Shown here: positions 3,372 through 18,701 of the stretch, in pieces
Layout of the letters: every line of letters starts with the position of its first letter
How positions within the stretch are numbered: the stretch's first letter is position 1
Source of the DNA: Nonomuraea angiospora
GTDB lineage: Bacteria; Actinomycetota; Actinomycetes; Streptosporangiales; Streptosporangiaceae
DNA: 64,000 nt
Assembly: GCF_014873145.1 (NCBI RefSeq)
Contig: NZ_JADBEK010000001.1
Span: 1,612,001 to 1,676,000 of the forward strand
Direction: 5' to 3'
Program-made: the position numbers and the translations under genes
The notes under the pieces: generated by a model
Seen by the model: the letters and a program-made list of their open reading frames with translations, nothing else
Told to the model about the DNA's origin: nothing
The model's database searches: none

Positions 3372-4059
3372 GCTCGGGCCGCAGCCACTGCCCCGTGGGC
3401 CAGGTCTCCAGGCGCCAGGCGCTGTCCCAGAACATCCACTCGTACTCGGTGGCCCGGCAGAACGCCTCGTCCATCGCCCGGCGCGTCTCGGCGTCGGCGC
3501 TGTCGGCCAGCCGGTCGGCGATGGCCTTGGCCTGCTCCACCGAGGCGGCGAAGGCGGGGTCGGAGTAGGTGGCGATCCAGGTCCGGTACGGGTGGTCGGC
3601 CGCGCCCGCCGTACGCCGGAGCAGCGCCGCGCCGACGTCCTGGTAGACCCAGAAGCACGGCAGCACGGCGGCGGCGAGCACGGGCAGGGGCGCGGCCAGG
3701 GCCGTGGCCTGGAGGTAGGAGGAGTAGGCCAGGCACGTCGGCGAGGTGGCCACGGCCGCCGTCTCGCCGGCCGTCAGCCCGAACTCCTCCAGGTAGCCGG
3801 TGTGCAGGGCCCGCTCGACGACCAGCGCCGTGTGGGCGCTCTGCGCGAAGAACGCGGCGTCGGCCGGGGAGGTGGCGCGGGCCGAGGCGGTCGCGAGGAC
3901 CTTGGCGTAGGCCACCAGGTAGCGCCCGTCCTGGACCAGGTAGAACGCGAAGCGCTCGCGGTCGAGGGTGCCGTCGCCGAGCGCGGCGTTGAACGGGTGG
4001 TCGTGGATCGCCTGGAGCAGCGTCTCCGTGCGCGCCCAGATCGTGTCACAGAAGGTCAC
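3352..4059 (-). CDS. tenA: Thiaminase II / aminopyrimidine aminohydrolase
   Basis: 235 residues, normal TenA length. TenA hydrolyses aminopyrimidines (thiamine breakdown products) to hydroxymethylpyrimidine for thiamine salvage, in the cytosol. The active-site cysteine is in VLPCFWVYQDVG, at residue 135 with this start (the same number as in B. subtilis TenA), and the conserved glutamate is in YEWMFW near the C terminus. The start is the GTG at 4059, chosen because GAAGGGA (4074-4068) lies 8 nt upstream and is also the 3' end of a TPP riboswitch; longer starts would run into the riboswitch. Transcription is from the strand of the upstream MFS gene. The stop overlaps the convergent regulator gene by 20 bp. 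Confidence 0.9.
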   Translation of the reverse strand: MTFCDTIWARTETLLQAIHDHPFNAALGDGTLDRERFAFYLVQDGRYLVAYAKVLATASARATSPADAAFFAQSAHTALVVERALHTGYLEEFGLTAGETAAVATSPTCLAYSSYLQATALAAPLPVLAAAVLPCFWVYQDVGAALLRRTAGAADHPYRTWIATYSDPAFAASVEQAKAIADRLADSADAETRRAMDEAFCRATEYEWMFWDSAWRLETWPTGQWLRPELTRTTR

Positions 4060-4062
4060 CGG

Positions 4063-4147
4063 TGACGTCCCTTCGCTAGTGCGAACTAGATCAGGTTCGA
4101 CGGGTGTGATCTCAGCCCGGCAGCCCGGGCACCCCGCGTCGCGGCCA
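4063..4147 (-). promoter_or_regulatory. TPP riboswitch (THI element) of tenA
   Basis: Read on the minus strand, the element shows the conserved TPP-aptamer blocks in order: GGGGTGCCC, then GGCTGAGATCACACCC, GAACCTGATCTAGTTCG, CACTAGCGAAGGGA. The last block contains the GAAGGGA that also serves as the tenA Shine-Dalgarno. Ligand binding should therefore hide the ribosome-binding site directly, giving translational repression of thiamine salvage when thiamine pyrophosphate is abundant. Confidence 0.95.
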
Positions 4148-4171
4148 ACGCTAGCAGAACGCGCGACCCCG

Positions 4172-5377
4172 TCAGAGGCGAGGGGCCGCCTCTCGCACAC
4201 CGCCCGGGCGCAGCGCGCCCGCCAGCGCCAGCGCGACCAGGATCCCGGCACCGCCCGCCACCGCGATCGCGGGCCCGGGCGCGATCAGCTCGCCGAGCGC
4301 CCCGACCAGCGCCGCCCCGGCCGCCTGTCCCGTCATCAGCCCGGACGACTGCAGCCCGAACGCCTGCCCCCGCACCTCCTCGGGCACCGACTCCACGAAC
4401 CGCCGCTGCAACCCCAGCTGGTACGACAGCCCCGCGGTCGCCACGGCGGCCAGCACGGCGGCCCACACGATCCCCGGCCCGAGCGCGAACCCCACCCAGG
4501 GCACGCCGAGCAGCACCGCCAGCGGGAACGACAGCCGCTCCCGCAGCCCCGGCGCGGCGAACCGGCCCACCGCGAACTCCCCCACCGCCATCCCGCCGGC
4601 CGCCGCCGCGAGCACCACCCCGGCCTTCCCCTGCCCGCCCAGGTAGGGCACCACCATGGCCTCGGCCCCGGCCAGGCACACGCACGGCAGCCACCCCGCC
4701 AGCAGCAGCCCGCGCACCCGCCCGTCGACCAGCAGCCGCCGGTTGACCCGCAGCGTCTGGCGCACCGCGCCCGCTCGCGCCGCGCCCCGGGCGGGCCGGT
4801 ACGGCAGTCCGGCCCGCAGCACCACGGCGGCCACCGCGGCCAGGCCCGCGGTCGTGGCCAGCGCCCCGGAAGGCCCGGCGACGGCCAGGAACGCGCCCCC
4901 GGCCGCCAGCCCGGCGATCTGCGCGCTCGCGGAGGCCACGTTCAGGACCGACCGCCCCAGCACGAACGCGTCGCCGGGCAGCACGTCGGGCAGCATCGCC
5001 GCCCGCGCGGCGAAGAAGACCGGCGTGAACAGCCCCGTGACCAGCACCAGCGCCAGCATCGCCCAGACCGGCAGCCCCCCGAACGCCAGCAGCAGGCACG
5101 TCACCGCCCTGACCACCTCGCCGGTCACCATCAGCGCCCGCGGCGGCAGCCGGTCGGCCAGCGAGAGCAGCAGCAGCCCGCCCACGATGAACGGCAGCCA
5201 GCCCGCCATGTACGCCGCGGCCGACAGGCCGGCCGAGCCGGTCCGCGCGTAGACCAGCACGGACAGGGCCAGCATCTTGATCGAGTCCCCGCCGACCAGC
5301 AGCGCGAAGCTGCCGAACAGGACCCGGAACTCCTTGACGGCGAACACCTCGCCGAACGTCGCCCCTTGCACGTCCAC
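4172..5377 (-). CDS. MFS transporter (drug/siderophore exporter type)
   Basis: 401 residues, about 12 predicted membrane helices. The N-terminal half holds the typical cytoplasmic loop LLSLADRLPPRALM, equivalent to the GxxxDRxGRR signature, after the second helix. The closest general type is the small-molecule or enterobactin-exporter branch (EntS-like). The annotated start is the GTG at 5377; no strong Shine-Dalgarno is visible, so the start is uncertain. It is divergent from a DUF5937/ArsR-type regulator across only 53 bp with a palindrome, which suggests the regulator controls it. Whether it moves a thiamine-related compound is not shown; tenA downstream has its own riboswitch. Confidence 0.8.
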   Translation of the reverse strand: MDVQGATFGEVFAVKEFRVLFGSFALLVGGDSIKMLALSVLVYARTGSAGLSAAAYMAGWLPFIVGGLLLLSLADRLPPRALMVTGEVVRAVTCLLLAFGGLPVWAMLALVLVTGLFTPVFFAARAAMLPDVLPGDAFVLGRSVLNVASASAQIAGLAAGGAFLAVAGPSGALATTAGLAAVAAVVLRAGLPYRPARGAARAGAVRQTLRVNRRLLVDGRVRGLLLAGWLPCVCLAGAEAMVVPYLGGQGKAGVVLAAAAGGMAVGEFAVGRFAAPGLRERLSFPLAVLLGVPWVGFALGPGIVWAAVLAAVATAGLSYQLGLQRRFVESVPEEVRGQAFGLQSSGLMTGQAAGAALVGALGELIAPGPAIAVAGGAGILVALALAGALRPGGVREAAPRL

Positions 5378-5430: not shown

Positions 5431-6405
5431 GTGCCGGTAAGAATCGAGGTCACGCCACAGGACCTGGTGGCCACCAGGTTCGCGATCTCGCCGCTGATCG
5501 AGACCATGCACGCGCAGTGGGTGCTGGCGGGCCGGCTGGAGGCGGGCGTGCACGGCCGGTGGGCCGCGCGGTGGCGGGGCGCGTACCGGGAGCTCGAACG
5601 CGCCCACCCCGTGCTGCGGGCCGCGGCCGCGATCAGCGGCAACCGGCGCGGCACGAACGTCGCCTTCATCGCCCCGCCGCCGACGGCGGTGGACGTGCCG
5701 TTCGAGGCGGAGCTGGCCGCCATGCGCGCGACGCCGCTGGAGCAGGCGCACGCGGAGATCGCCAGGGCGCTGGCCGGGCGGCCGGCGGCGGGTGAGGCCG
5801 GGGAGCTGCTGGCGGGGCCGCGGGTGGTGGAGCGGTTCGCCGACGCGTACGAGGCGCTCTGGACGCGGATCCTCTCCCACGACTGGCCGCGCTTGCGCGC
5901 GATCCTGCAGCGCGACGTCGCCCATCGGGCGGGCCGGCTGGCGGCCTACGGCTGGGCGGCGGCGCTGGAGGACCTCAGCCCGCAGGTCCACTGGCGGCCC
6001 CGGGGGCAGATCGAGGTCGAGCTGACCACCCTCCACGGGCTGCGCCGGCTCGGCGGCAAGGGGCTGCTCTTCCTGCCGTCGGCGTTCACGACCGCCGTCG
6101 GGGCGTACCTGGAGGACGCCTGGCCGTACGCGATGATCTACCCCGCGCGGGGCGCCCTGGCCGCGCCCGCCGCGGCCGACGACGGCCTGTCGGCCCTGAT
6201 CGGCCGCAGCCGCGCCCGCATCCTCGCCGAGCTGGCCGAGCCCGCCACCACCACCCAGCTCGCGGCCCTGCTGGGGCAGAGCGTGGGCACCACGGGCGGC
6301 CACGTGGCGGCGCTGCGCAGGACGCGCCTGATCGCGGGCACCCGCGTCGGCCGCGGCGTGCTGTACGCGCGCACCCCCCTCGGCGACGCTCTGGTCAACG
6401 GGTGA
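5431..6405 (+). CDS. DUF5937 domain / ArsR-type winged-helix transcriptional regulator
   Basis: 324 residues. The N-terminal 200 residues match the DUF5937 ligand-sensing region that precedes ArsR-type HTH domains in actinobacteria (RFAISPLIETMHAQWVL near the start is typical). The C-terminal 75 residues form a winged helix (ARILAELAEPATTTQLAALL, then GQSVGTTGGHVAALRRTRLI). No metal-binding cysteine pair is visible, so it is probably a small-molecule sensor rather than a metal sensor. It starts with GTG at 5431, has no Shine-Dalgarno and is probably leaderless. The divergent MFS exporter is the likely target. Confidence 0.8.
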   Translation: MPVRIEVTPQDLVATRFAISPLIETMHAQWVLAGRLEAGVHGRWAARWRGAYRELERAHPVLRAAAAISGNRRGTNVAFIAPPPTAVDVPFEAELAAMRATPLEQAHAEIARALAGRPAAGEAGELLAGPRVVERFADAYEALWTRILSHDWPRLRAILQRDVAHRAGRLAAYGWAAALEDLSPQVHWRPRGQIEVELTTLHGLRRLGGKGLLFLPSAFTTAVGAYLEDAWPYAMIYPARGALAAPAAADDGLSALIGRSRARILAELAEPATTTQLAALLGQSVGTTGGHVAALRRTRLIAGTRVGRGVLYARTPLGDALVNG

Positions 6406-6473
6406 TAAAAAAGACAAACACCACTAAATCCTCCCTCGACGCCATATCCAGGTAAATCCTACTGATACAGTCG

Positions 6474-6570
6474 CTTATGTCACGAGTCCAGTGCGAAGCC
6501 CCGGCTTGCTGGACGGCAACCCTCCCACCGCGGCGGGGTGCCCCGGGTGATGACACGGTCGTCGAGCTGA
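6474..6570 (+). promoter_or_regulatory. SAM-IV riboswitch
   Basis: The sequence carries the SAM-IV aptamer core: a P1 strand TGTCA near 6478, GAAGCCCCGGCTTGCTGG, ACGGCAACCCTCC, CACCGCGGCGGGGTGCCCC and GGGTGATGACA closing P1. This matches the actinobacterial SAM-IV consensus (GCCAGC-AAGCCCCGGCUUGCUGGC-CGGCAACCCUCC-GGUGGGGUGCCCCGGGUGAUGAC) almost base for base. It lies about 80 nt ahead of the binding-protein start, in the same direction, so S-adenosylmethionine should lower expression of the whole downstream transporter/hydantoinase operon. The expression platform was not resolved. Confidence 0.93.
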
Positions 6571-6652
6571 ATGGTGCTCCTGGCGGCAAGCGCGGATGTC
6601 GAGTCGTGCTGCCACGCGCCCTTGGCCGGCTGCTCGAAAAGGGAAGGTAAAG

Positions 6653-7768
6653 ATGAAGGGCGGATTCACTCGCCTCGCGGGACTGGGCATGGTGGTCGCG
6701 CTGGCGGTCACGGCCTGCGGCGGCGTCGACACGGCCGGATCCACTGGCGGTTCCACGGGCGGTTCGCCGGGCACGGGCGCGGCCAGGCAGGAGCTCACGG
6801 TGACCGCGTTCGCGGGCGCGTGGGGAGAGCTGTTCAAGAAGTCGTTCGTGGAGCCGTTCGAACGCGACACCGGCGCCAAGGTGAACCTCGTCTACGGCGC
6901 GAACGCCGAATGGCTCACCAAGCTGCGCGCGGCCGGCGGCAAGAACCCGCCGTTCGACGTCATCGCGTTCACGCCGGACGCGTCGCTGCCCGCGGCCTCC
7001 GCCGGGCTGCTCCAGCCGCTGGCCACCGACCGGCTGGCGCACTTCAAGGAGCTGGACCCGGTGCTCGCCGGCAAGTCCGCGTACGACGGCAAGCAGTACG
7101 GCGTGCCGCTGACCACCGGCTCCACCGGCCTCCTCTACCGCACCGACAAGATCAAGACGCCGCCCGCGGACTGGGCGGACCTCTTCGACAAGCAGTACTG
7201 CGGCCACATCGCCCTCCCGCCGCTCACCTACAACCCCGGCCTGGAGTTCTTCTCCGCCCTGGTCACCTCCCAGGGCGGCACGCTGTCCGACCCGGCCGCC
7301 GTGGACAAGGCGTTCGACAAGCTCGCCACGCTGAAGGGCTGCGTGTCCTCCTTCCCCGCCAACGCGGGCAACGCCGCCACCGTCATCGAGAACGGCGACG
7401 CCTGGATCATGCCCTTCTGGGACGGCCGCGCCTTCGCCATGGCCCAGGCCGGCTCCCCGATCGGCTTCACCTACCCCAAGTCCGGCCCCGTCGGCGCGCT
7501 GACCTCGTACTTCGTCGCCGCGGGCACCCAGAAGAGCGACCTGGCGAACAAGTTCCTCGACCACCTGACGGCCGCGCAGAACCAGAAGCCGTTCGCCGAG
7601 GGCACCTGGTACGCCGCGGGCAACGACTCGATCTCCTACAGCGAGCCGTTCGAGCAGAAGGTGAAGCACGGTCCCGACGTCTTCAAGAAGTTCATCTGGG
7701 TGGACTACGCGGTCGCCACCCCCAAGCTGAACGAATGGCAGCAGCGGTGGAACCAGATCTTCGGCTGA
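6653..7768 (+). CDS. ABC importer substrate-binding lipoprotein (PotD-like)
   Basis: 371 residues with a lipoprotein signal whose lipobox is LAVTAC; a Gly/Ser/Thr linker follows (GSTGGSTGGSPG). The mature part is a family-1/PotD-type solute-binding protein (TVTAFAGAWGELFKKSFVEP and GVPLTTGSTGLLYRTDKI are typical). It captures the substrate outside the membrane and passes it to the two permeases downstream. Two cysteines (in QYCGHI and LKGCVSS) may form a disulfide. The ATG at 6653 follows GGGAAGG (6641-6647). It is the first gene behind the SAM-IV riboswitch. The ligand cannot be read from the sequence; polyamine-type binding proteins also accept amino acids and opine-like molecules. Confidence 0.88.
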   Translation: MKGGFTRLAGLGMVVALAVTACGGVDTAGSTGGSTGGSPGTGAARQELTVTAFAGAWGELFKKSFVEPFERDTGAKVNLVYGANAEWLTKLRAAGGKNPPFDVIAFTPDASLPAASAGLLQPLATDRLAHFKELDPVLAGKSAYDGKQYGVPLTTGSTGLLYRTDKIKTPPADWADLFDKQYCGHIALPPLTYNPGLEFFSALVTSQGGTLSDPAAVDKAFDKLATLKGCVSSFPANAGNAATVIENGDAWIMPFWDGRAFAMAQAGSPIGFTYPKSGPVGALTSYFVAAGTQKSDLANKFLDHLTAAQNQKPFAEGTWYAAGNDSISYSEPFEQKVKHGPDVFKKFIWVDYAVATPKLNEWQQRWNQIFG

Positions 7769-8850
7769 CCCCGGAAGAAGGCGGCGGGCACGTCGAGATC
7801 GAGGGGCTCGCCGCCGGGTACGACGGCGCGCGCGTCCTCGACCTGGACCGGCTGTCGATCCGCAAGGGCGAGTTCCTGTCGATCCTCGGGCCCAGCGGCT
7901 GCGGCAAGACGACGCTGCTCAACTGCGTCGCCGGCTTCGTCCAGCCCACGGCCGGGCGGATCGTGATCGACGGCTCCGACGTGACCGCGCGGCCCCCGTA
8001 CCGGCGGGGCCTGGGCATGGTGTTCCAGAACTACGCGCTCTTCCCGCACATGACCGTGGCCGCCAACGTGGCGTACGGGCTGCGCGTGCGCCGGCTCGAC
8101 CGGCGGGAGCGGGACGAGCGGGTGCGGGAGGCGCTGAGCCTGGTCGGCCTGGAGGAGTACGCCGGGCGGCGGCCCCGCCAGCTGTCCGGCGGGCAGCAGC
8201 AGCGGGTCGCCCTGGCCCGCGCGCTGGCCATCCGGCCCGCCGTGCTGCTGCTGGACGAGCCGCTGTCCAACCTGGACGCCAAGCTGCGCAGGGAGATGCG
8301 GGTGGAGCTGCGCGCCATCCAGCGGCGCATCGGCACCACCATGGTCTTCGTCACGCACGACCAGGAGGAGGCGCTCGCGCTGTCCGACCGGGTGGCCGTC
8401 ATGAACGGCGGCCGGGTCGAGCAGCTCGGCACCCCCGACGAGGTCTACCGGCGGCCGGCGACCCGGTTCGTCGCGCAGTTCATCGGCGCGGCCAACGTCC
8501 TGGAGGGCACGGTGACCGCCTCGGGCGCGCTCGACTCCGGCGGGATCGTCGTCGAGTGCGGCCTCCCCTCGCCGCGGCCGGGCGCGCGCGCCGTCGTCGC
8601 CGTCCGCCCCGAACGCATCCGCCTCACCACACCGGGCCCCGGGGCCACTGGGGTGGCCGGGACGGTCGGGTATCGGGCCTTCGCCGGGGACGCCTGGCAC
8701 GTCGAGGTGCGGCTGGCCGACGGGCGCACCCTGAGCGTGCAGGTCGCCGACACCGGCGCGGGCGCCGAGGACCCGCCCGGCGCGGGCACGTCCGTGCTCG
8801 CGCACTGGGATCCGGCCGACGTCATCCTCCTGGAAACGGAGGCGCCATGA
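7735..8850 (+). CDS. ABC importer ATPase (PotA-like)
   Basis: 371 residues with every ABC motif: Walker A GPSGCGKTT, Q-loop FQNYALFPHM, signature LSGGQQQRVALARAL, Walker B VLLLDEPLSNLD and H-loop VTHDQEEAL. A C-terminal TOBE-like domain (about 280-370) follows, as in polyamine and Fe(III) importers. It energises uptake by the two permeases. The ATG at 7735 makes a 34-bp overlap with the binding-protein gene; a GTG at 7747 is equally possible, since neither has a good Shine-Dalgarno and translation is probably coupled. The stop overlaps the next start (ATGA). Confidence 0.88.
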   Translation: MAAAVEPDLRLTPEEGGGHVEIEGLAAGYDGARVLDLDRLSIRKGEFLSILGPSGCGKTTLLNCVAGFVQPTAGRIVIDGSDVTARPPYRRGLGMVFQNYALFPHMTVAANVAYGLRVRRLDRRERDERVREALSLVGLEEYAGRRPRQLSGGQQQRVALARALAIRPAVLLLDEPLSNLDAKLRREMRVELRAIQRRIGTTMVFVTHDQEEALALSDRVAVMNGGRVEQLGTPDEVYRRPATRFVAQFIGAANVLEGTVTASGALDSGGIVVECGLPSPRPGARAVVAVRPERIRLTTPGPGATGVAGTVGYRAFAGDAWHVEVRLADGRTLSVQVADTGAGAEDPPGAGTSVLAHWDPADVILLETEAP

Positions 8851-9704
8851 CCCGCCGCCGGGCGGGCCTGCCGTACGCGCTGCCGCTCGTCGCCTTCCTG
8901 GCCGCCCTGTTCCTGGTCCCCCTCGTCCGGCTGCTGCGGCTCAGCTTCAGCCCCGTCGACGCCTTCAACGCGGCGCTGCCCGGATTCACCTTCGAGCAGT
9001 ACGCCCGGGTGTTCACCGAGCCGTACTTCTACGGCTCCCTGCTCCGGACGCTGGCCACCGCGCTCCTGGTGGCGGTGCTGTGCGTGGCGCTGGCGTACCC
9101 GGCCGCCTACCTCCTGGCCCGCCGGCGCCCCGGCGTGCTGCGGACCCTGCTGTTCGTCATCGTGATCTCGCCGCTGCTGACCAGCGTGGTGGTCCGCACC
9201 TACGGGTGGGTCGTGCTGCTGTCCGGCAACGGGCTCGTCAACCGGGCGCTCGTCGGCTCCGGGCTGCGTGACCAGCCCGCCCAGCTGCTCACCAGCTACC
9301 CGGCCGTCGTGGTCGCGGTGACGCACGTGCTGCTGCCGTTCGCGATCATCCCGCTCACGACGGCGCTCGGCGGGCTGGACCGCAACCTGCACCGGGCCTC
9401 GCAGACGCTCGGGGCCGGGCCGATCAGGACGTTCCTGCGGGTCACGGTCCCGCTCAGCCTGCCCGGCGCGGTCACCGGCGCCCTCATCGTCTTCGCGCTG
9501 GCCATGGGCATCTACATCACGCCGCTGCTGGTCGGCGGGGTGACCCAGCCGCTGACCGGCATCCGGGTCTACGACCAGGTGACGACGGTGTTCGACTACC
9601 CGGTGGCGGCGGCGCTGAGCTTCGCGCTGCTCGCGCTGACCGTCGTGTCCACGGGGCTGCTGGCGGGCGTGTTCCGGATCTGGGAGAGGCGCCTTCATGG
9701 GTGA
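8847..9704 (+). CDS. ABC importer permease 1 (PotB-like)
   Basis: 285 residues, about six membrane helices, with the permease coupling motif around TLGAGPIRTFLRVTVPLSLPG (the EAA loop that contacts the ATPase). The type is the polyamine/2-aminoethylphosphonate branch of binding-protein-dependent permeases. The start ATG overlaps the ATPase stop (ATGA), and its end overlaps permease 2 by 8 bp, so the set is translationally coupled. Confidence 0.88.
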   Translation: MTRRRAGLPYALPLVAFLAALFLVPLVRLLRLSFSPVDAFNAALPGFTFEQYARVFTEPYFYGSLLRTLATALLVAVLCVALAYPAAYLLARRRPGVLRTLLFVIVISPLLTSVVVRTYGWVVLLSGNGLVNRALVGSGLRDQPAQLLTSYPAVVVAVTHVLLPFAIIPLTTALGGLDRNLHRASQTLGAGPIRTFLRVTVPLSLPGAVTGALIVFALAMGIYITPLLVGGVTQPLTGIRVYDQVTTVFDYPVAAALSFALLALTVVSTGLLAGVFRIWERRLHG

Positions 9705-10497
9705 GCGGGGCTACGACAGGATCGTGCGGCTGGTGGCCGCGGCCCTGGCGGCACTGGTGTTCCTGTTCCTGATCGCGCCGCTGGTCGTGCTGGTGACGAG
9801 CTCGTTCAACCAGGCGGGCTCGATGGCGTTCCCGCCGTCGGGGCTGTCGCTGCGCTGGTACGCCGAGGTGCTCGGCTCGCCCGACTGGCAGGTCTCGTTC
9901 CGGCTGAGCGGCCTGCTGGTCCTCCTGGTGGTGCCGACGACCGTGGTCATCGGGACGCTGGCGGCGTACGGGCTGACGCAGGGGTCGTTCCCCGGCCGGC
10001 GGCTGCTGCAGGGGTTCGCGCTGTCGCCGCTGATGGTCCCGGAGATCATCGTCGCGCTCGGCCTGCTCTACTACTTCCACGGCGTCGGCCTCGTCAACTC
10101 GGTGACCGGGCTGTGGCTGGCGCACTCGCTGGTGGCGCTGCCGTTCGTGGTGCGGGCGGTCATGGTGAGCGCCGCGCAGCTCGACCCGGCGCTGGAGCGG
10201 GCCGCCCTGAGCCTGGGCGCCGGCCGGGTCCGGGTGTTCCTGACCGTGACGCTGCCGCTGCTGCGGCCCGGCATCCTCGCGGGCGCGATCCTCGCCGCGG
10301 TCACGTCGCTGGGCGAGGTCGCCGTCACGGCCCTGGTGGCGGGCGCGAACACCACGACGGTGCCGCTGCGCATCTTCTCGGCCGTGCAGTACCAGCTCGA
10401 CCCGTCGATGGCCGCGGTGTCCACGCTGCTCATGGCGGCGAGCGTGGTGGTGATGGTGGTCGCGGACCGATTCGCTCGCATTTCGGAGGCCCTGTGA
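9697..10497 (+). CDS. ABC importer permease 2 (PotC-like)
   Basis: 266 residues, about six membrane helices, with the EAA loop SLGAGRVRVFLTVTLPLLRPG. It pairs with permease 1 to form the channel of the importer. The start at 9697 lies inside the end of permease 1, and the stop TGA at 10495-10497 is part of the GTGA that begins the hydantoinase gene. The tight coupling implies that imported substrate goes directly to the enzymes encoded next. Confidence 0.88.
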   Translation: MGERGYDRIVRLVAAALAALVFLFLIAPLVVLVTSSFNQAGSMAFPPSGLSLRWYAEVLGSPDWQVSFRLSGLLVLLVVPTTVVIGTLAAYGLTQGSFPGRRLLQGFALSPLMVPEIIVALGLLYYFHGVGLVNSVTGLWLAHSLVALPFVVRAVMVSAAQLDPALERAALSLGAGRVRVFLTVTLPLLRPGILAGAILAAVTSLGEVAVTALVAGANTTTVPLRIFSAVQYQLDPSMAAVSTLLMAASVVVMVVADRFARISEAL

Positions 10498-12671
10498 CAA
10501 GCACAGTGACAAGCACGGGTGCGGTGACCGCGACCGGCGCGCGGATCGGCATCGACGTCGGGGGAACGTTCACCGACCTCGTGGCCTCCGTGCCGGAACG
10601 CGGCCTCGTGGTGCACCACAAGGAGCCGAGCACGCCCGCCGACCCGTCCCTGGCGGTCGCGGACGGGCTGGCGGCCCTCCTCGCCCGCGCGGACCTGCGG
10701 CCGGAGGAGGTCACGGGCCTCGTCCACGGCACCACGATCGGCCTGAACGCCGTCATCCAGCGGCGCGGCGCGCGCATCGCCCTGGTCGTGACCGAGGGCT
10801 ACCGCGACATCCTGGAGATCGGCCGCAGCCGCATGCCGTCCTCCTTCGACCTGTACGCGGGCAAGGAGGAGCCCCTCGTCCCCCGCAACCTCATCGTCGA
10901 GATCTCCGCCCGGCTGGGCCCGGGTGGCGCGCCCGTGGCCGAGCCGGACGCGGCCGAGCTGGACCGCGTCGCCGCGCGGCTGCGGGCCACCGGGGCCGAC
11001 GCGGCGGCGGTCGTGATCCTGCACGGCTATACCGACCCGGCCTTCGAGGAGGGCGTCGCGGCGGGCCTGCGCGAGCGGCTGCCCTTGCTGCCGGTGACGG
11101 CCTCGGCGACCGTGTGGCCCGAGGTGCGCGAGTACGAGCGGGCCCTGGTGGCCTGCATGAACGCCTACATCCAGCCGCTCATGCGCGACTACTTCGCCCG
11201 CCTGGAGGGCCGGGTGCGCGGGCTCGGGGTGTCGGCGCCGATCTTCATCAGCGCGTCCAACGGCGGCTCGATGAGCCTGCGCTCGGCCGCTGAACGGCCC
11301 GTCGAGACCGTGCTGTCGGGGCCGGCCGCCGGTGTGGCCGCGGCCGCCCGGCTGGGCGCTGGGGCCATCGTCACGTTCGACATGGGCGGGACCAGCAGCG
11401 ACATCGCCGTGTCCGTGGACGGCTCGCCCGAGCTGGCCACCCACACCACGGTGGGCGGGCTGCCGCTGATCGTGCCGGTCGTGGCCGTGCACGCGATCGG
11501 GGCCGGGGGCGGGTCGGTCATCCGGGTGGACGGGCAGGGCGTGCTCAAGGTCGGGCCGGGCAGCGCGGGCGCCGACCCCGGGCCGGCGGCGTACGGGCGG
11601 GGCGGCGACCGGCCGACCGTGACGGACTGCTACCTGGCGACCGGGCTGATCGACCCGCGCACGTTCCTCGGCGGCCGGATGCCCCTCGACGCCGGCGCCT
11701 CGTTCAAGGCCCTGTCGGGCGTCGCCTCCCACCTCGCCTCCGGGGGCGAGCGCGGGGAGCTCCCCGGCGGCGACGCGGCCGGGCCGGATGGCGATGTGGC
11801 CGGGCTGGACGGACCGGGTGGCGATGTGGCCGCGTACCGGGTGGCGGCGTCGGCGCTGCGGGTGGCGACGGCGGGGATGGCGACCGAGCTGCAGAAGATC
11901 ATGGCGCAGCGCGGGCTGGACCCGCGGCGGTTCGCGCTCGTGCCGTTCGGCGGCGCGGGCCCGACGCACGCCGCCATGCTCGCCGAGGAGGTCGGGATCG
12001 CGCACATCGTGGTCCCGCCGACCGCCGCCACGTTCTGCGCCCTGGGCGCGGCGGGCGCGGACCTGCGCCGCGACTTCGCCCGCAGCCTGCGCCGCCCCCT
12101 GGACGCCGCGAGCGCCACCCGCCTGGCGGGCGTGCTGGCCGAGCTGTCCGCCCAGGCCCGGGAGTGGCTGGCCGAGCAGGACGGCGGGGCCCGGTCTCGG
12201 GGACGGCTGTCGTTCGCGGCCGACATGCGCTATTCCGGCCAGGCGTACGAGCTCCGCGTCGCCCTCGACCCCGGCCGCCTGGACGCCGGGACGGTCTCCG
12301 AGGCCTTCCACGCCGAGCACGAGCGCCTGTACGGCTTCCGCGACCAGGGCGCGACCGTCGAGCTCGGCACCGCCAGGCTCGGCGTGGTCGGTCCGGCGGC
12401 CGAGCTGCCGCCCGCCGCCGTCCCCCCGGGCACGGGCGCGCCCCGTCCAGCGGCCCGCAGGCGGGTCCTGCTGGCCGGCGCCTGGCACGACGCCCGCGTC
12501 CACCTGCGCGAGTCCCTCGGCGTGGGGGACGCGTTCGACGGCCCGGCGATCGTCGAGCAGGACGACACCACCGTGGTCGTGCCGCCCGGCTGGTCGGCGG
12601 ACGTGGACGAGGCCGGCAACCTGCACCTGCGCCGGACGGACGGCGCCCAGAATCCTCGTCGGAAGGCCTGA
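10494..12671 (+). CDS. hyuA: Hydantoinase/oxoprolinase subunit A
   Basis: 725 residues, normal for HyuA. It has the ASKHA-type ATP site: GIDVGGTFTDL at the N terminus, VHGTTIGLNAVIQRRGA, and FDMGGTSSDIA in the second half. Together with subunit B it uses ATP to open a cyclic amide (hydantoin, N-methylhydantoin, 5-oxoproline or a related ring) in the cytosol. The GTG at 10494 follows GGAGG (10485-10489). Around residue 420 a Gly/Asp-rich insertion has the near-repeat GGDAAGPDGDVAGLDGPGGD, which looks like a low-complexity expansion. Which ring is the substrate cannot be told; the SAM-IV riboswitch in front argues for a sulfur compound. Confidence 0.9.
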   Translation: MTSTVTSTGAVTATGARIGIDVGGTFTDLVASVPERGLVVHHKEPSTPADPSLAVADGLAALLARADLRPEEVTGLVHGTTIGLNAVIQRRGARIALVVTEGYRDILEIGRSRMPSSFDLYAGKEEPLVPRNLIVEISARLGPGGAPVAEPDAAELDRVAARLRATGADAAAVVILHGYTDPAFEEGVAAGLRERLPLLPVTASATVWPEVREYERALVACMNAYIQPLMRDYFARLEGRVRGLGVSAPIFISASNGGSMSLRSAAERPVETVLSGPAAGVAAAARLGAGAIVTFDMGGTSSDIAVSVDGSPELATHTTVGGLPLIVPVVAVHAIGAGGGSVIRVDGQGVLKVGPGSAGADPGPAAYGRGGDRPTVTDCYLATGLIDPRTFLGGRMPLDAGASFKALSGVASHLASGGERGELPGGDAAGPDGDVAGLDGPGGDVAAYRVAASALRVATAGMATELQKIMAQRGLDPRRFALVPFGGAGPTHAAMLAEEVGIAHIVVPPTAATFCALGAAGADLRRDFARSLRRPLDAASATRLAGVLAELSAQAREWLAEQDGGARSRGRLSFAADMRYSGQAYELRVALDPGRLDAGTVSEAFHAEHERLYGFRDQGATVELGTARLGVVGPAAELPPAAVPPGTGAPRPAARRRVLLAGAWHDARVHLRESLGVGDAFDGPAIVEQDDTTVVVPPGWSADVDEAGNLHLRRTDGAQNPRRKA

Positions 12672-12673
12672 AC

Positions 12674-14677
12674 GTGCGGCTCGACCCCGTCACCATGGAG
12701 ATCGTCGGCAACCGGCTCAGCGCCATGACCGAGGAGATGTGCCTCACCCTCCAGCGCACCAGCCGCTCCCTGTACGTCAAGGAGACCGCCGACTTCTGCT
12801 GCGCCTTCGCGGGCCTGGACGGCGGCTTCGTCGCCTACCCGCGCGGCATCGGCGTCTCCGGCTTCGTCGGCCTCAACGTGCTGACCGCCGTACAGGCCGC
12901 CGGCCCGCTGGAGCCCGGCGACGTGATCATCACCAACGACCCGTACCGCTCCGGCGGCCTGGCCACCCACCTGACGGACATCCAGCTCATCGAGCCGTAT
13001 TTCCACGAGGGCGAGCTGGTCGGCTACGGCTGGGCGTTCATCCACTGCTCCGACATCGGCGGGCGGGTGCCGAGCAGCCTGTCGCCGGTCAACGACGAGA
13101 TCTTCCAGGAGGGCCTGCAGATCCCGCCGGTCAAGCTGGTACGCGCCGGGGAGCCGAGCCGCGACGTCGAGGCGCTGATCACGGCCAACAGCCGCACCCC
13201 CGAGGCGAACCTGGGCGACATCAGGGCCATGCGCGCGGCCCTGCGCACCGGCCGGGAGCGGCTGGCCGGCGTCGTCGCCCAGCACGGCCTGCCCACGGTG
13301 CTCGACGCGCAGCGCGACCTGGTCGAGTACACCGCGGGCAAGGCCCGCGCCGCCCTGGCCGCGCTCGGCGACGGCACCCACCGCTTCGTCGACTACCTCG
13401 ACGACGACGCCGTCTCCAGCCTCCCGGTCCGCCTGTCGGTCACCGCGACGCTGCGCGCGGGCGACCTGCACCTCGACTTCACCGGCACGGATCCGCAGGT
13501 CGCCGCGGCGTTCAACATCGCGACCCTGGGCCGGCCGCACGCCTGGATCACCACCAGGGTGCTCGCGCTCATCTGCACCCTCGACCCCGGCATCGCGCTC
13601 AACGCGGGGCTCATCGCCCCGATCACCGTCACCACGCCCGAGGGCTCGCTGGTCAACCCCGTGCACCCGGCCGCCGTGGGGGTGCGGCACGCCTCGGCCA
13701 ACCGCGTCAACGACGCCATCGGCGGCGCGCTCGGGCTGGCCGCCCCGCACGTGCTGCCGGCGGCCTCCAGCGGGCTGGTGGTGCCCGTGGTCGTCGCCGA
13801 GCAGCGCGGCTCCGGCCAGAACGTGCAGGTCCTGGAGCCGATGGTGGGCGGTACGGGGGCCCGCGAGGGCGCCGACGGGGTGGACGGCCGCGACAGCGGC
13901 ATCTCCAACCTGTCCAACAACCCGGTGGAGACCGTCGAGACGGAGATCGGGGTCGAGATCCTCAGGTACGGGCTGCGTACCGACTCGGGAGGCGCCGGGC
14001 GCTGGCGCGGCGGGTGCGGGCTGGAGCTGACGTTCCGGGTGCGCGGGGAGGGCTCGAAGCTGCTGGCCCGGGGGCTGGAGCGGATGTGCTTCCGCCCGTG
14101 GGGCGTGCGCGGCGGCGGCCCGGGCGCGGCCACCGAGCTGATCGTCAATCCGGGCACGGCCCGGGAGCGCAGGCACTTCAAGATCGACGTGCTGCCGCTG
14201 GAGCCCGGTGACGTCGTCACGCTGCTGACCTCGGGCGCGGGCGGCTACGGCGACCCGTACACCAGGGATCCGGAGGCGGTGCTGCGGGACGTGGAGCGGG
14301 GCGTGGTCTCCCGGGAGGCGGCGGCGCGCGCGTACGGGGTGGTGCTGGCGGAAGGGGATGGCGGCCTGGCCGTGGACGGCCCCGGCACGGCGCAGGCCCG
14401 CGGCGAGCACCGCCCGGACCTGGTCGTCAACGACGGCGGGCCGGAGCGGCGGGCGTGGGAGTCGGTGTTCGACACCGCCAGCGTCGACCGCCTGGTGGCC
14501 GCCCTGTTCCGGCTCCCCCGCCCGGCCCGCACCCCGCGCAGGACGGCCCTCTACACCGCGGTCCTGGCCGCCCTGCCGGCCGGCTTCCCCAGGACGCCCC
14601 CCACCCCCGATGAGCGCGACGCGGCCCGCCGTACCCTCGTCCAAGAGATCACCGAACTGGAACGGAGGTCGGCGTGA
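12674..14677 (+). CDS. hyuB: Hydantoinase/oxoprolinase subunit B
   Basis: 667 residues, somewhat longer than many HyuB proteins because of a C-terminal extension after GDVVTLLTSGAGGYGDP. The family start LDPVTMEIVGNRLSAMTEEM is intact, as are VDYLDDDAVSS and the RYGLRTDSGGAGRWRGGCG region. It forms the cyclic-amide-opening enzyme with subunit A. The GTG at 12674 follows GGAAGG (12661-12666), two bases after the subunit A stop. It ends in a GTGA overlap with the amidohydrolase. Confidence 0.9.
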   Translation: MRLDPVTMEIVGNRLSAMTEEMCLTLQRTSRSLYVKETADFCCAFAGLDGGFVAYPRGIGVSGFVGLNVLTAVQAAGPLEPGDVIITNDPYRSGGLATHLTDIQLIEPYFHEGELVGYGWAFIHCSDIGGRVPSSLSPVNDEIFQEGLQIPPVKLVRAGEPSRDVEALITANSRTPEANLGDIRAMRAALRTGRERLAGVVAQHGLPTVLDAQRDLVEYTAGKARAALAALGDGTHRFVDYLDDDAVSSLPVRLSVTATLRAGDLHLDFTGTDPQVAAAFNIATLGRPHAWITTRVLALICTLDPGIALNAGLIAPITVTTPEGSLVNPVHPAAVGVRHASANRVNDAIGGALGLAAPHVLPAASSGLVVPVVVAEQRGSGQNVQVLEPMVGGTGAREGADGVDGRDSGISNLSNNPVETVETEIGVEILRYGLRTDSGGAGRWRGGCGLELTFRVRGEGSKLLARGLERMCFRPWGVRGGGPGAATELIVNPGTARERRHFKIDVLPLEPGDVVTLLTSGAGGYGDPYTRDPEAVLRDVERGVVSREAAARAYGVVLAEGDGGLAVDGPGTAQARGEHRPDLVVNDGGPERRAWESVFDTASVDRLVAALFRLPRPARTPRRTALYTAVLAALPAGFPRTPPTPDERDAARRTLVQEITELERRSA

Positions 14678-15930
14678 GCGAACAGGACGCCGTCGACGCG
14701 ATCATGGCCGGGCTCGCGGGCCCGGCGCTCGACGAGCTCGCCGAGCTGTATCGGGACCTGCACCGGCACCCCGAGCCAGCCTTCGAGGAGGAGCGCACGG
14801 CGGGCATCGCCGCCGAGAGGCTGCGGGCGGCCGGGTTCGAGGTCGTCACGGGCCTCGGCGGCACAGGTGTGGCGGGCGTGCTGCGCAACGGCGACGGCCC
14901 CACGGTGGCATTACGGGCCGACATGGACGCGCTGCCGGTCCTGGAGGCCACGGGCCTGCCGTACGCGAGCACCGCCACCACGCCCGGCGGGGTGCCGCTC
15001 ATGCACGCCTGCGGCCACGACATGCACGTGGCGTGCCTGATTGGCGCGACGCACCTGCTGGCGGCCGGCCGGGACCGGTGGCGGGGCACGCTCGTGGCGC
15101 TGTTCCAGCCGGCGGAGGAGATCGCGGCCGGGGCGCGGGCCATGCTGGACGACGGGCTGTTCGACCGGATCGGCACCCCCGACGTCGTGCTCGGCCAGCA
15201 CGTCTTCCCCGACCCGGCCGGGACGCTGCTCGTCAGCCCCGGCGAGATCCTGGCCGCCGCCGACAGCATGGAGATCCGGCTGTACGGCCGGGGCGGCCAC
15301 GGCTCCCAGCCGGAGCGGACCGTCGACCCGGTCGTCCTGGCCGCCTCGACCGTCATGCGCCTGCAGACGGTCGTCTCGCGCGAGATCTCCCCGTTCGAGC
15401 GGGCGGTGCTGACGGTGGCCCAGATCCACGCGGGCCACAAGGAGAACATCATCCCCGACGAGGCGTCCATCACGGTCAACCTGCGCTCGTTCTCCCCCGA
15501 GGTGCGCCGCACCTTGCTGGCGGCCGTGGAGCGGGTGGTCAACGCCGAGGCGGCCGCCTCCGGCGCGCCCCGCCCCCCGGAGATCCGCACGCTCAGCGCC
15601 TTCCCGCTGACCGTCAACGACGGCGACGCCACGGCCCGGGTGCGCGAGGCGTTCGCCGGCCGGTTCGGCTCCGAGCGGGTGCCGGTCATGGAGCCGCTGA
15701 TGGGCAGCGAGGACTTCGGCCTGTTCGGCTCCGAGGCGGGCGCGCCGTCGGTCTTCTGGGGCCTCGGCGGCGCCGACCCCGAGCTGTACGCCCGCGCCGA
15801 GCGTGAGGGCCGGCTGCGCGAGGACGTGCCGGGCAATCACTCGCCCTTCTTCGCGCCCCAGCTCCTGCCCACGCTGCCCACGGGGGTCGAGGCCCTGGTC
15901 ACCGCCGCCCTGGCCTGGCTACCGGCGTGA
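14674..15930 (+). CDS. M20-family amidohydrolase (N-acyl amino acid deacylase type)
   Basis: 418 residues. Metal-site motifs are present: LRADMDALPV, HACGHDMHVACLIGA, EEIAAGARAML and the late MGSEDFGLF. The overall pattern is that of the aminoacylase/hippuricase/IAA-conjugate hydrolase branch of M20, not the N-carbamoyl amidase branch. It would release an amino acid from an N-acyl form, following import and ring opening by the upstream gene products. The start GTG at 14674 overlaps the HyuB stop. It is the last gene before the hairpin at 15939-15974. Confidence 0.88.
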   Translation: MSEQDAVDAIMAGLAGPALDELAELYRDLHRHPEPAFEEERTAGIAAERLRAAGFEVVTGLGGTGVAGVLRNGDGPTVALRADMDALPVLEATGLPYASTATTPGGVPLMHACGHDMHVACLIGATHLLAAGRDRWRGTLVALFQPAEEIAAGARAMLDDGLFDRIGTPDVVLGQHVFPDPAGTLLVSPGEILAAADSMEIRLYGRGGHGSQPERTVDPVVLAASTVMRLQTVVSREISPFERAVLTVAQIHAGHKENIIPDEASITVNLRSFSPEVRRTLLAAVERVVNAEAAASGAPRPPEIRTLSAFPLTVNDGDATARVREAFAGRFGSERVPVMEPLMGSEDFGLFGSEAGAPSVFWGLGGADPELYARAEREGRLREDVPGNHSPFFAPQLLPTLPTGVEALVTAALAWLPA

Positions 15931-15938
15931 CGGCCCGG

Positions 15939-15974
15939 CAGCTCGTGAGAGGCCCCCGGGCTTCTCACGAGCTG
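15939..15974 (+). terminator. Strong hairpin terminator of the SAM-IV operon
   Basis: The perfect 12-bp arms CAGCTCGTGAGA and TCTCACGAGCTG can be extended through GGCCC/GGGCT to about 17 pairs with a CC loop. It begins 8 bp after the M20 stop. No U-run follows, which is common for actinobacterial terminators. Confidence 0.75.
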
Positions 15975-16234
15975 AAAGTTTCACGTGCCGAGCTGGGCGG
16001 ACGTCGCCGGGCGAGCGCTCGGCTGGTGCCCGAGTCCGGCCCGATCTAGGGTGACGGTGCCTGTCCGGCGCCGGCCGTGCACCTCGTGGACGGGTGCCCC
16101 GACCGGTGCCGGAGCGGCATTCCTGGCGCGCCCCCACGCGAAAGGGCCCCCCGATGGCACCTCGCCACCGCCTCCCGGCGGCGTCCGGCACGTCTACGAC
16201 GTCACCGTCTTCGCGAACCGCGCCGGCTGACGCC
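15975..16234. other. Non-coding stretch ahead of the GH43-like gene
   Basis: No convincing gene is seen here. The one notable site is GAAAGGG at 16139-16145, 8 nt before an ATG at 16154 that is in frame with the GH43-like gene and would add 27 residues before its signal peptide. No clear promoter hexamers were found. Confidence 0.4.
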
Positions 16235-17656
16235 ATGTCCCGTCTCCTGACCCTGCTGGCCGGGCTGTGCCTGGCGCTCACGCTGACCCCCGTCGCCCCG
16301 GCGACGGCCGCACCCGTGACCGTGCCGGTCGGCGCGCAGTTCACCGACACCTCGGGCAACCTGCTGCACGCCCACGGCGGCGGCGTGATCAAGGTCGGCT
16401 CGTACTACTACTGGTTCGGGGAGAACCGCAACGCCGACGGCACCTTCCGCTACGTCTCCGCCTACCGCTCGGCCGACCTGCGCACCTGGGAGTTCCGCAA
16501 CCACGTGCTCACCCAGTCCAGCTCCGCCGAGCTGCAGGTCGCCAACATCGAGCGGCCCAAGGTCGTCTACAACGCCGCGACCGGCCGCTTCGTCATGTGG
16601 ATGCACAAGGAGAACGGCCGGGACTACGGCGAGGCGCGGGCCGCCGTGGCCGTCTCGGCCACGGTGGACGGCGCCTACACCTACCTGCGCAGCTTCCGGC
16701 CGCTCGGCCACATGTCGCGCGACATCACCGCGTTCGTCGACACCGACGGCACCGGCTACATGATCTCGGCCGCGAACGAGAACTACGACCTGCACGTCTA
16801 CCGGCTCAGCGCCGACTACACCGACGTGGCCGCGCTGGCGCGCGTGTGGTCCGGCGACCACCGGGAGGCGCCGGCGCTGTTCAAGCGCGACGGGGTGTAC
16901 TTCATGCTGACCTCGGGCGCGACCGGCTGGCAGCCCAACCAGGCCCAGTACGCCACCGCCACCAGCATCACCGGCACGTGGAGCGCCTGGCAGAACGCCG
17001 GCGACTCGCAGACGTTCGGCTCCCAGCCGGCCTACGTGCTGCCGGTGCAGGGCACGTCCGGCACGTCGTACCTGTATCTGGGCGACCGGTGGGCCGGCGC
17101 GTGGGGCGGGCCCGTCAACGACTCCCGGTACGTGTGGCTGCCGATCCAGTTCCCGAGCAGCACGTCCATGAGCCTGACCTACGCCCGCCAGCTCACCGTC
17201 GACGCGGCCGCCGGCACGATCGCCGCGACGGGCACCGGCTACGACCGGCTGGCGGTGCGGCACTCCGGCAAGTGCGCCGACGTACGCAACGCCTCCACCG
17301 CCAACGCGGCCGCGGTCATCCAGTACGCCTGCGGCGGCGGCGCCAACCAGCAGTGGCGCGTCCAGTCGATCAGCGGCGGCTACGTGCAGGTCGTGGCCCG
17401 CAACTCCGGCAAGTGCCTGGACGTCAACGGCGCCTCCACCGCCGACGGGGCGGCGCTGCAGCAGTACACGTGCGGCCCCGGCGCCAACCAGCAGTGGACG
17501 CTGCAGGACGCGGGCGGCGGCTACCTGCGCCTGGTGGCCAGGCACTCGGGCAAGTGCGCCGACCTGCCCGGCTCCGCACAGGCCGACGACGTGCAGTTCA
17601 AGCAGTATCTGTGCAACGGCGGCCAGAACCAGCAGTTCACCCGCACCCCACTGTGA
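16235..17656 (+). CDS. Secreted GH43-like glycosidase with C-terminal ricin-B (CBM13) domain
   Basis: 473 residues. A signal peptide (MSRLLTLLAGLCLALTLTPV, cut near ATA-AP) is followed by a five-bladed propeller domain (about 30-320). This begins QFTDTSGNLLHAHGGGVIKV, the pattern of GH43 subfamily 24 (exo-beta-1,3-galactanase-like) proteins. The C terminus (about 335-473) is a beta-trefoil lectin with three QxW-type repeats (NQQWRV, NQQWTL, NQQFTR) and paired cysteines. It probably trims galactan side structures of plant arabinogalactan outside the cell. Start choice: the ATG at 16235 gives a proper signal peptide but has no Shine-Dalgarno; the ATG at 16154 has one. No partner genes adjoin it. 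Confidence 0.72.
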   Translation: MSRLLTLLAGLCLALTLTPVAPATAAPVTVPVGAQFTDTSGNLLHAHGGGVIKVGSYYYWFGENRNADGTFRYVSAYRSADLRTWEFRNHVLTQSSSAELQVANIERPKVVYNAATGRFVMWMHKENGRDYGEARAAVAVSATVDGAYTYLRSFRPLGHMSRDITAFVDTDGTGYMISAANENYDLHVYRLSADYTDVAALARVWSGDHREAPALFKRDGVYFMLTSGATGWQPNQAQYATATSITGTWSAWQNAGDSQTFGSQPAYVLPVQGTSGTSYLYLGDRWAGAWGGPVNDSRYVWLPIQFPSSTSMSLTYARQLTVDAAAGTIAATGTGYDRLAVRHSGKCADVRNASTANAAAVIQYACGGGANQQWRVQSISGGYVQVVARNSGKCLDVNGASTADGAALQQYTCGPGANQQWTLQDAGGGYLRLVARHSGKCADLPGSAQADDVQFKQYLCNGGQNQQFTRTPL

Positions 17657-17756: not shown

Positions 17757-18701
17757 GTGAACGAATCGAAGCGTGTGGAAATCACCTGGCCCAGCCTCGG
17801 CATCACCGTGGCCGCCGAACTCGACCAGCGCAACCGCGCCCTGGCCCAGTGCCTCTGGGACGCCCTCCCCTACCGCAGCCTGCAGGGGCACGCCCTGGTC
17901 GCCGGATATCACCTCTACCACCTCGCACCGGTCCATTCGCTGCTGCACACACCAGCGGAATACCGCGTGGACCGGCGTACCGTGCCCGACGGCACCCTGT
18001 TCTGCTCGCGGCTGCAGCATCTCGGCATCAAGTACGGCGAGCTCACCGAGCCCATGACCGCCACCCCGATCGGCCAGGTCGTCCCGGAGGACCTCGACGC
18101 CCTGGTCCAGGCCGGCCGCGACGTCTGGCACTCCGTCTACACCACCAAGAAGCCCGTCATCGCCGAAGTACGCCGCGAGGGCGAGCCCAGCGGCCACCAG
18201 CTCCCGCGCCTGCCCATCGGCGACCCGCAGCTCAACGAGCTGGTCAAGGACGTGCACGCCGAGACCGAGCGCATCTGGCTGGACCCGCCCCGCGAGCTGC
18301 TCGACCTGCACGCGGGCCGCATCCCGTCCGGCGCCGGCAGCTACGAGACGGTCCTGACCACGCTGCTGTTCGTCAACGGCGAGACCCGGCCGCTCGGCTA
18401 CAGCTGCTACGGCGGCCTCGTCCGCGCCGCCCTCGACGGCATGCCGATGCCGTGGCTGCGCCAGATGACCCGCCAGCTCGCGCACACGCCCGCCGAGTTC
18501 CTCGGCTACTGCGGCCTCGACACCCTGTGGGGCTTCACCCAGCGGCTGCTGGACGGGCTCGACCGGCTCGACGACCACGAGGACTTCGTCTCCGTCATGG
18601 CCCACATGGCCCTGTACTGCAACTGCCTCGGCGGCTGGAACCTGCACCTGTTCCCCTGGGAGGCGGGCGAGCACCTGCGCCGCGAAGAGGCGCCCGCATG
18701 A
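17757..18701 (+). CDS. Cucumopine-synthase-like cyclophilin-fold protein
   Basis: 314 residues. The N-terminal half (about 5-135) looks like the cyclophilin-like fold of the TM1367/DUF3830 group: VEITWPSLGITVAAELD, CLWDALPYRSLQGHALVAG, GTLFCSRLQHLGIKYGEL. The C-terminal half (about 140-314) is helical, like the helical bundle fused to this fold in cucumopine synthase. That enzyme joins L-histidine to 2-oxoglutarate by a Pictet-Spengler reaction. The assignment is from remembered family pattern, not from an alignment. The GTG at 17757 has no Shine-Dalgarno; a -10-like TAGAGT at 17743-17748 would suit a leaderless message. It is coupled by ATGA to the flavoprotein gene and followed by a P450, implying one pathway. 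Confidence 0.5.
   Translation: MNESKRVEITWPSLGITVAAELDQRNRALAQCLWDALPYRSLQGHALVAGYHLYHLAPVHSLLHTPAEYRVDRRTVPDGTLFCSRLQHLGIKYGELTEPMTATPIGQVVPEDLDALVQAGRDVWHSVYTTKKPVIAEVRREGEPSGHQLPRLPIGDPQLNELVKDVHAETERIWLDPPRELLDLHAGRIPSGAGSYETVLTTLLFVNGETRPLGYSCYGGLVRAALDGMPMPWLRQMTRQLAHTPAEFLGYCGLDTLWGFTQRLLDGLDRLDDHEDFVSVMAHMALYCNCLGGWNLHLFPWEAGEHLRREEAPA

Follow-up and report, generated by a model that had tools for sequence, protein, structure and literature searches.

Within a 64,000-nucleotide (nt) stretch of the Nonomuraea angiospora genome (contig NZ_JADBEK010000001.1, positions 1,612,001 to 1,676,000 of the forward strand; hereafter the window), an S-adenosylmethionine (SAM) riboswitch of the SAM-IV class stands before seven genes that run in one direction and encode a binding lipoprotein, an ATPase, two permeases, HyuA, HyuB and an M20D amidohydrolase. 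Neighboring genes overlap by 4-22 nt, with HyuA and HyuB 2 nt apart (given the assigned start codons), and their domains are those that a first-pass annotation had claimed for a tightly packed run of importer, HyuA/HyuB and M20 genes. In window coordinates, the features are:

6478..6598, plus strand: SAM-IV riboswitch aptamer (RF00634), by Rfam match and covariation in 14 homologues
6599..6652, plus strand: leader from aptamer to start codon, the presumed expression platform, with a Shine-Dalgarno-like stretch, GGGAAGG
6653..7768, plus strand: solute-binding lipoprotein (SBP) of the PotD fold class; SBP_bac_8 domain, lipobox recognized by eye
~7747..8850, plus strand: ATP-binding cassette (ABC) importer ATPase, PotA subfamily; ABC_tran and TOBE_2 domains, 369.4 bits to TIGR01187 (above the cut-off of 355.6), start codon uncertain
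8847..9704, plus strand: ABC importer permease, PotB type; BPD_transp_1 domain
9697..10497, plus strand: ABC importer permease, PotC type; BPD_transp_1 domain
10494..12671, plus strand: HyuA, ATP-binding subunit of an ATP-dependent cyclic amidase; Hydant_A_N, Hydantoinase_A and Hydant_A_C domains
12674..14677, plus strand: HyuB, metal hydrolase subunit; Hydantoinase_B domain (485.3 bits), conserved metal ligands
14674..15930, plus strand: M20D amidohydrolase of aminoacylase type, a lineage accessory; Peptidase_M20 and M20_dimer domains, TIGR01891 (285 bits)
~15939..15974, plus strand: stable hairpin after the last gene, from folding; possible terminator without a T tract

The riboswitch and its leader

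The aptamer, first proposed from inspection, was borne out by a covariance search, in which the RF00634 match scored 92.9 bits (E 1.5e-15; gathering score 38) and spanned model positions 1-116, the full length of the model. Across an alignment of 14 homologues (aptamers L108 and L109, found later, are not included), double changes occur in 9 of the 30 SAM-IV model pairs, a count that 0 of 500 shuffles equaled and that compares with 1-4 in slid controls. One of five covariation measures, further pair types, was not exceptional (69 of 500 shuffles), and the outermost P1 pair is broken in 8 of the 14 aptamers.

SAM-IV elsewhere is a repressing SAM sensor. Here the aptamer lies 54 nt from the ATG at 6653, with GGGAAGG just 5' of that codon, and a pattern scan of 6200-16400 called no terminator-like site, hence none between riboswitch and transporter, as the first-pass annotation had assumed. 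Because the leader has no terminator, translational control, through hiding of the ribosome-binding site, is the most likely mode. The same annotation had closed the operon with a terminator, and on this point the outcome was mixed: folding of 15925-15990 gives −40.2 kcal/mol (z −5.55), a very stable hairpin, but one that has no T tract and was not called by the terminator pattern.

The 13.1 Mb genome of the window carries two SAM-IV elements. The second (L043, 6124-6239) precedes a gene that by eye resembles class V aminotransferases or cysteine desulfurases, and similar aminotransferase/desulfurase-like genes stand behind SAM-IV in three other genomes (L079, L084, L085). Separately, a thiamine pyrophosphate (TPP) riboswitch match (63.9 bits) lies on the minus strand at window positions 4051-4146, within the 5' part of an open reading frame at 3352-4251 (minus) whose translation by eye resembles a TenA-type thiaminase II; the true start of that frame would therefore lie further downstream.

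Conservation of the riboswitch-operon pair

HyuA was searched in 297 genomes of the order, where the best match reached at least 65% identity in 11 genomes and all other matches listed were at most 47% identical; 24 loci came from scanning named species contigs with a HyuB profile, and one of them, L075 (32%), is not an orthologue. Matches above 1270 bits occurred in 12 of 341 genomes of the family sample (two more lay near 540 bits), genus samples had matches in 3 of 148 Nocardia, 2 of 295 Streptomyces and 2 of 19 Amycolatopsis genomes (one further Amycolatopsis match scored 599 bits), and the single match among 396 phylum-wide genomes at E 1e-200 was the window's own. With split contigs merged, the importer-HyuAB operon is present in 24 actinomycete genomes, and the order SBP-ATPase-PermB-PermC-HyuA-HyuB is kept wherever the contig covers it (the HyuB end of L036, L040 and L109 falls on a separate contig of the respective genome, and that of L038 lies outside the available sequence).

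Upstream DNA was available for 22 of these 24 operons, the contigs of Marinitenerispora (L037) and Granulicoccus (L073) ending within the binding-protein gene or shortly before it. A SAM-IV aptamer lies directly 5' of the binding-protein gene in 16 of the 22, while none of 12 paralogous HyuAB loci is preceded by one; since the element recurs before the orthologous operons and before none of the paralogous loci, we reject chance placement. The carriers are five Nonomuraea (the window, L033, L036, L055, L109), three Actinomadura-type loci (L035, L040, L041), Streptosporangium (L039), the Nocardiopsis-type loci L042 and L038, Streptomyces (L060, L108), Amycolatopsis (L061, L062) and Actinopolymorpha (L063). 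Evolutionarily, the riboswitch label is clustered on a HyuB tree of 33 rows (deep forks open, long branches flagged), requiring 4 changes where shuffled labels averaged 11.1, and Nocardia is sister to Amycolatopsis (100/100). At another locus (L111, 7023-13633), the set of HyuAB, ATPase and permeases is related at 38-52% identity and has no SAM-IV; this could be a sister system with another trigger.

HyuAB as a predicted cyclic amidase

Functionally, HyuA and HyuB belong by sequence to the ATP-dependent hydantoinase/oxoprolinase family and are predicted to open a cyclic amide. Hydant_A_N (148.7 bits), Hydantoinase_A (269.8 bits) and Hydantoinase_B each score above cut-off, and carboxylases give the pair lower scores than hydantoinase and caprolactamase do. 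Most members of this large family have no known substrate. Phosphate-site residues Asp21 and Asp296 of HyuA are invariant (7/7), as are Asp40, His99, Asp102 and His124 of HyuB (8/8), which align with all four metal ligands of the caprolactamase subunit CapB; the ATP-site and metal-ligand residues of CapAB were taken from an excerpt of PMC8453981. Identity as a caprolactamase was rejected, at 439.1 and 227.5 bits against an NCBIfam equivalog cut-off of 1000. Tyr136 of CapB, proposed as the acid/base in the same excerpt (PMC8453981), corresponds to Leu136 in HyuB (8/8), and the vicinal disulfide Cys410-Cys411 of CapB aligns with Ser408-Gly409.

The nearest solved structure of both subunits is N-methylhydantoinase (379.5 bits for HyuA, 254.2 for HyuB), in which the metal ligand His124 of HyuB is Gln. 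Window positions 17757-19786 encode a protein whose C-terminal domain is of cucumopine-synthase type (152 bits) and, directly behind it, a glycine/sarcosine-oxidase-like DAO (18707-19786); among 33 other loci searched, the pair was found only in N. jabiensis, many of the loci being too short to tell.

The DAO gene is one of two points that would fit supply of one-carbon units or nitrogen, whereby N-methylhydantoin or a creatinine-type compound is salvaged to sarcosine and glycine and thus to methyl groups for methionine; the other is the HyuB of Corynebacterium glutamicum ATCC 14067, linked to creatine/creatinine use under AmtR in an excerpt of PMC8864220. Set against these are the narrow recurrence of DAO and its partner, the exchange of His124 for Gln in the very enzyme that acts on N-methylhydantoin, and the lack of an N-carbamoylsarcosine amidase gene in the window's operon, and we consider such a route very improbable.

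The importer and its ligand

The binding protein scores 80 bits to the PotD model, far from the curated cut-off of 582. Spermidine is contacted in PotD by Glu36, Glu171 and Asp257, according to an excerpt of PMC4096761; in a profile alignment the first is kept as Glu59, and the other two positions hold Leu197 and Thr284. A structure model (mean pLDDT 75 for the best of five, 45-59 for the others) matches the PotD fold class, including 3pu5, 4edp, the gamma-aminobutyric acid receptor Atu4243 and opine binders, and gives no ligand. The protein is probably not a polyamine binder. SAM is a precursor of spermidine, and a Pot-type importer tuned by SAM could in principle serve polyamine uptake, conjugated polyamines then being the substrates of HyuAB and M20; given the PotD score, the two replaced contacts and a ring-opening enzyme that would be left unexplained, we find this scarcely credible.

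A conserved core with lineage-specific neighbors

The riboswitch, importer and HyuAB form the conserved core, and the window-type M20D is a lineage accessory. At E 1e-20, the latter lies behind HyuB in all 12 Streptosporangiales-type loci for which downstream DNA was available and in none of 11 loci from Streptomyces, Amycolatopsis, Actinopolymorpha, Nocardia, Tessaracoccus, Brachybacterium and Granulicoccus. A conserved seven-gene unit was accordingly rejected in favor of a core of the first six genes, and the suggested co-occurrence of riboswitch, hyuA/hyuB and M20 survives for the riboswitch, importer and HyuAB but not for M20.

As an enzyme, M20D resembles aminoacylases: against its 285 bits to TIGR01891 (cut-off 153.75) stand 23.7 bits to the carbamoylase model TIGR01879 (cut-off 204). 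C113, H115, E148, E149, H176 and H389, which we take to be its metal-binding and catalytic residues, are invariant (8/8), and its best PDB match is N-alpha-acyl-glutamine aminoacylase (6slf, 322.5 bits), followed by YxeP (1ysj, 216 bits).

In five loci a CreE-like flavin monooxygenase adjoins the operon, behind M20 in L035, L041 and L059, divergent upstream in L039 and convergent in L042; it scores 488.7 bits to PDB 8cp2, titled 'FAD-binding protein', which we take to be CreE. A 45% identical relative is encoded in the window's genome far from the operon (L078, G000:C1:2261581-2263278). Both Amycolatopsis loci have a different M20D gene immediately 5' of the riboswitch, together with an SfnB-like oxidoreductase whose gene stands upstream in one locus and, in the other, downstream in convergent orientation. 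All three Nocardia operons, which are riboswitch-less, have an AtsK/TauD-like dioxygenase gene divergent from that of the SBP (two copies are 88% identical to the third); the one copy searched (L065) best matches, within the PDB, taurine dioxygenase 4j5i (396.6 bits), the Rv3406 alkyl sulfatase (323.7 bits) and AtsK (305.9 bits).

Between the Nocardia SBP and the divergent dioxygenase lies an identical block with a perfect palindrome, ACCGATCGGT (L064 ~3903-4230, L065 ~3926-4290, L107 ~12751-13115), a candidate operator of these operons. A wider Nocardia sulfur regulon was not upheld: with at most 2 mismatches, seven sites were found in the three genomes, the three exact ones being the operon sites, and the backwards control gave three, so that the search is uninformative beyond the operon.

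Other lineages have other neighbors. Some URO-D proteins are methyltransferases; a gene of this family (46 bits, no PDB sequence match) lies 3' of HyuB in Tessaracoccus (L071, 11974-12969) and Granulicoccus (L073, ~8138-9130), the two being 76% identical. An isochorismatase-like gene (30.6 bits, cut-off 27) adjoins HyuB in Actinopolymorpha. In Komagataeibacter (L074), the genes near HyuAB encode a TonB receptor and an SSF transporter along with a flavoprotein, a LysR regulator and an M19 dipeptidase; the same enzyme may here be supplied by a different means of import. The theme is a repeated recruitment of an amidohydrolase and an oxygenase, the oxygenases being unrelated and scoring below naming cut-offs or having none.

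These neighborhoods bear on two candidate routes. In the first, HyuAB would open 5-(2-methylthioethyl)hydantoin to N-carbamoyl-methionine, which M20 would decarbamoylate to methionine. The isochorismatase-like family includes N-carbamoyl amidases, so that its member beside HyuB in Actinopolymorpha would suit this route, and HyuAB of Pseudomonas NS671 is reportedly used for methionine hydantoin. The NS671 HyuAB is an ATP-dependent hydantoinase (excerpts of PMC8864220 and PMC8453981), and N-methylhydantoinase is the closest structural relative of the window's pair. However, the M20D scores favor an aminoacylase over a carbamoylase, which weakens the hydantoin ring suggested in the first-pass annotation; the window-type M20 is missing from all 11 loci outside Streptosporangiales; and the route has no need for oxygenase neighbors. 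We regard it as improbable.

In the second, a special case of the organosulfur scavenging that we favor below, a five- or six-membered sulfur lactam would be opened and then deacylated to recover cysteine, as an actinomycete counterpart of Bacillus scm/ytn. Within the B. subtilis scm cluster (formerly yxe), ScmP is an N-acetylcysteine deacetylase (excerpt of PMC12757645), and YxeP would be ScmP, judging from the renaming of the cluster. Homology to YxeP hints that M20D could be an N-acetylcysteine deacetylase of ScmP type, and the adjoining flavin monooxygenase in five loci would be in keeping. M20D is, though, closer to the N-acyl-glutamine aminoacylase, no N-acetyltransferase was present among the neighbor proteins given to family scans, and the ring is a guess (2-oxothiazolidine-4-carboxylate or 5-oxothiomorpholine-3-carboxylate), leaving this variant doubtful.

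A proposed SAM-repressed organosulfur scavenging operon

Because a SAM-IV riboswitch before the importer and HyuAB is conserved, and because oxygenases of sulfur-scavenging type adjoin the operon in other lineages, sulfur or methionine salvage is the best reading of the locus. The first-pass annotation had reached the same general idea with M20 as an integral step; the idea stands, and M20 falls outside the conserved core. More specifically, we posit, with rather more confidence than doubt, a SAM-repressed organosulfur scavenging operon, in which a small cyclic amide would be imported and opened at the expense of ATP, with lineage-specific later steps. When SAM is plentiful, its binding to the aptamer would turn the operon off, probably via the hidden ribosome-binding site. 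Under sulfur or methionine shortage, the lipoprotein and PotABC-like importer would take up the cyclic amide, HyuA would use ATP to activate the amide of the ring, HyuB would hydrolyze that amide at its metal site to an open amide or amino acid, and lineage enzymes could then free from it sulfur in usable form or a sulfur amino acid. This last step would fall to M20D in Streptosporangiales (in five loci also with the CreE-like monooxygenase), to another M20D and the SfnB-like oxidoreductase in Amycolatopsis, and to the AtsK/TauD-like dioxygenase in Nocardia.

Several observations weigh against this organosulfur scavenging. Its substrate is still only a class, a cyclic amide. The leader folded no more stably than its shuffles (z +1.48; 188 of 200 were as stable or more so) and showed no clear switch, nor did a common one emerge when 14 leaders were folded singly. 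The flavin monooxygenase homologues are named nitrosuccinate synthase, a name that stands for N-, not S-oxygenases; the SfnB-like proteins score 98.6 and 102.5 bits, under the naming cut-off of 430.9, with similarity also to nitrososynthases and plain acyl-CoA dehydrogenases; and the TauD-like protein, at 203.5 bits, is under its cut-off of 313. No sulfur gene was recognized in the scanned parts of two proteobacterial neighborhoods (L070, L074). These neighborhoods and the sub-cut-off SfnB- and TauD-like scores are where, apart from the riboswitch itself, the sulfur reading is weakest.

The riboswitch itself is missing from 6 of the 22 operons, namely those of Nonomuraea NEAU-A123 (L034; also in a laxer search), Nocardia (L064, L065, L107), Tessaracoccus (L071) and Brachybacterium (L072), and from all four proteobacterial relatives; the pathway is therefore not tied to SAM everywhere. 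SAM-IV occurs elsewhere in the genomes of NEAU-A123, two of the Nocardia and Tessaracoccus, and the Brachybacterium genome has none. In the HyuB tree, NEAU-A123 branches first among six Nonomuraea, inside the carrier clade (100/98), which together with the placement of Nocardia reads most simply as loss of the riboswitch in both, though the four changes that the tree requires could also include repeated gains.

Since the ligand of the riboswitch is known, its place before one orthologous group of HyuAB links that group to SAM or sulfur status, and the substrates to be considered are thereby reduced from all cyclic amides to a small number. If organosulfur scavenging is correct, soil actinomycetes have an extra sulfur-acquisition route, and the ATP-driven opening of rings serves sulfur supply as well as the nitrogen and carbon use for which it is known. 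It is possible, although we hold this more tentatively than the scavenging itself, that these operons represent an undescribed, modular form of actinomycete organosulfur assimilation, in which SAM-IV, an importer devoted to the pathway and an ATP-dependent amidase for the ring opening of a sulfur-bearing cyclic amide of soil are joined in each lineage by a different sulfur-releasing enzyme (M20D plus CreE-like, SfnB-like or AtsK/TauD-like). Nocardia, with its apparent riboswitch loss and an alkylsulfatase-type gene in the shared intergenic region, offers a testable case of regulatory replacement.

Comparison with known systems

No paper joining a SAM riboswitch (or SAM-IV) with a hydantoinase was found among open-licence PMC papers, a scope that gives no proof of absence; parts of the system do have known counterparts. 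In Mycobacterium avium, SAM-IV precedes O-acetylhomoserine sulfhydrylase (excerpt of PMC3774663): this and other actinobacterial RF00634 elements are like the window's in aptamer sequence, structure, 5' leader position and actinobacterial host, but the M. avium gene is one of methionine synthesis, whereas the window has an importer and a cyclic amidase. With CapAB and the wider hydantoinase/oxoprolinase family, HyuAB shares the two-subunit architecture, ATP-site aspartates and HyuB metal ligands (PMC8453981, in part); the CapAB cut-offs far above its scores, Leu136 and the missing vicinal disulfide set it apart. The hyuB of C. glutamicum ATCC 14067, grouped with creatine/creatinine genes under AmtR (PMC8864220, in part), is likewise a hydantoinase-family gene of an actinomycete under nutrient control, but that control concerns nitrogen and acts through a protein repressor, and its partners are others. 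A relative of the AtsK/Rv3406 alkylsulfatases and TauD taurine dioxygenases is divergent from the SBP in the Nocardia operons, and accompanies that version only, not the window's operon. Lastly, the first-pass comparison with S-alkylcysteine salvage of Firmicutes proved apt as an analogy, M20D adjoining a flavin monooxygenase in five loci: S-(2-succino)cysteine breakdown by B. subtilis scm likewise joins an M20-family deacylase to a flavin monooxygenase, there for cysteine recovery, but as described in an excerpt of PMC12757645 it takes three steps without HyuAB, whereas the window's operon has a Pot-type importer and, among the scanned neighbors, no acetyltransferase.

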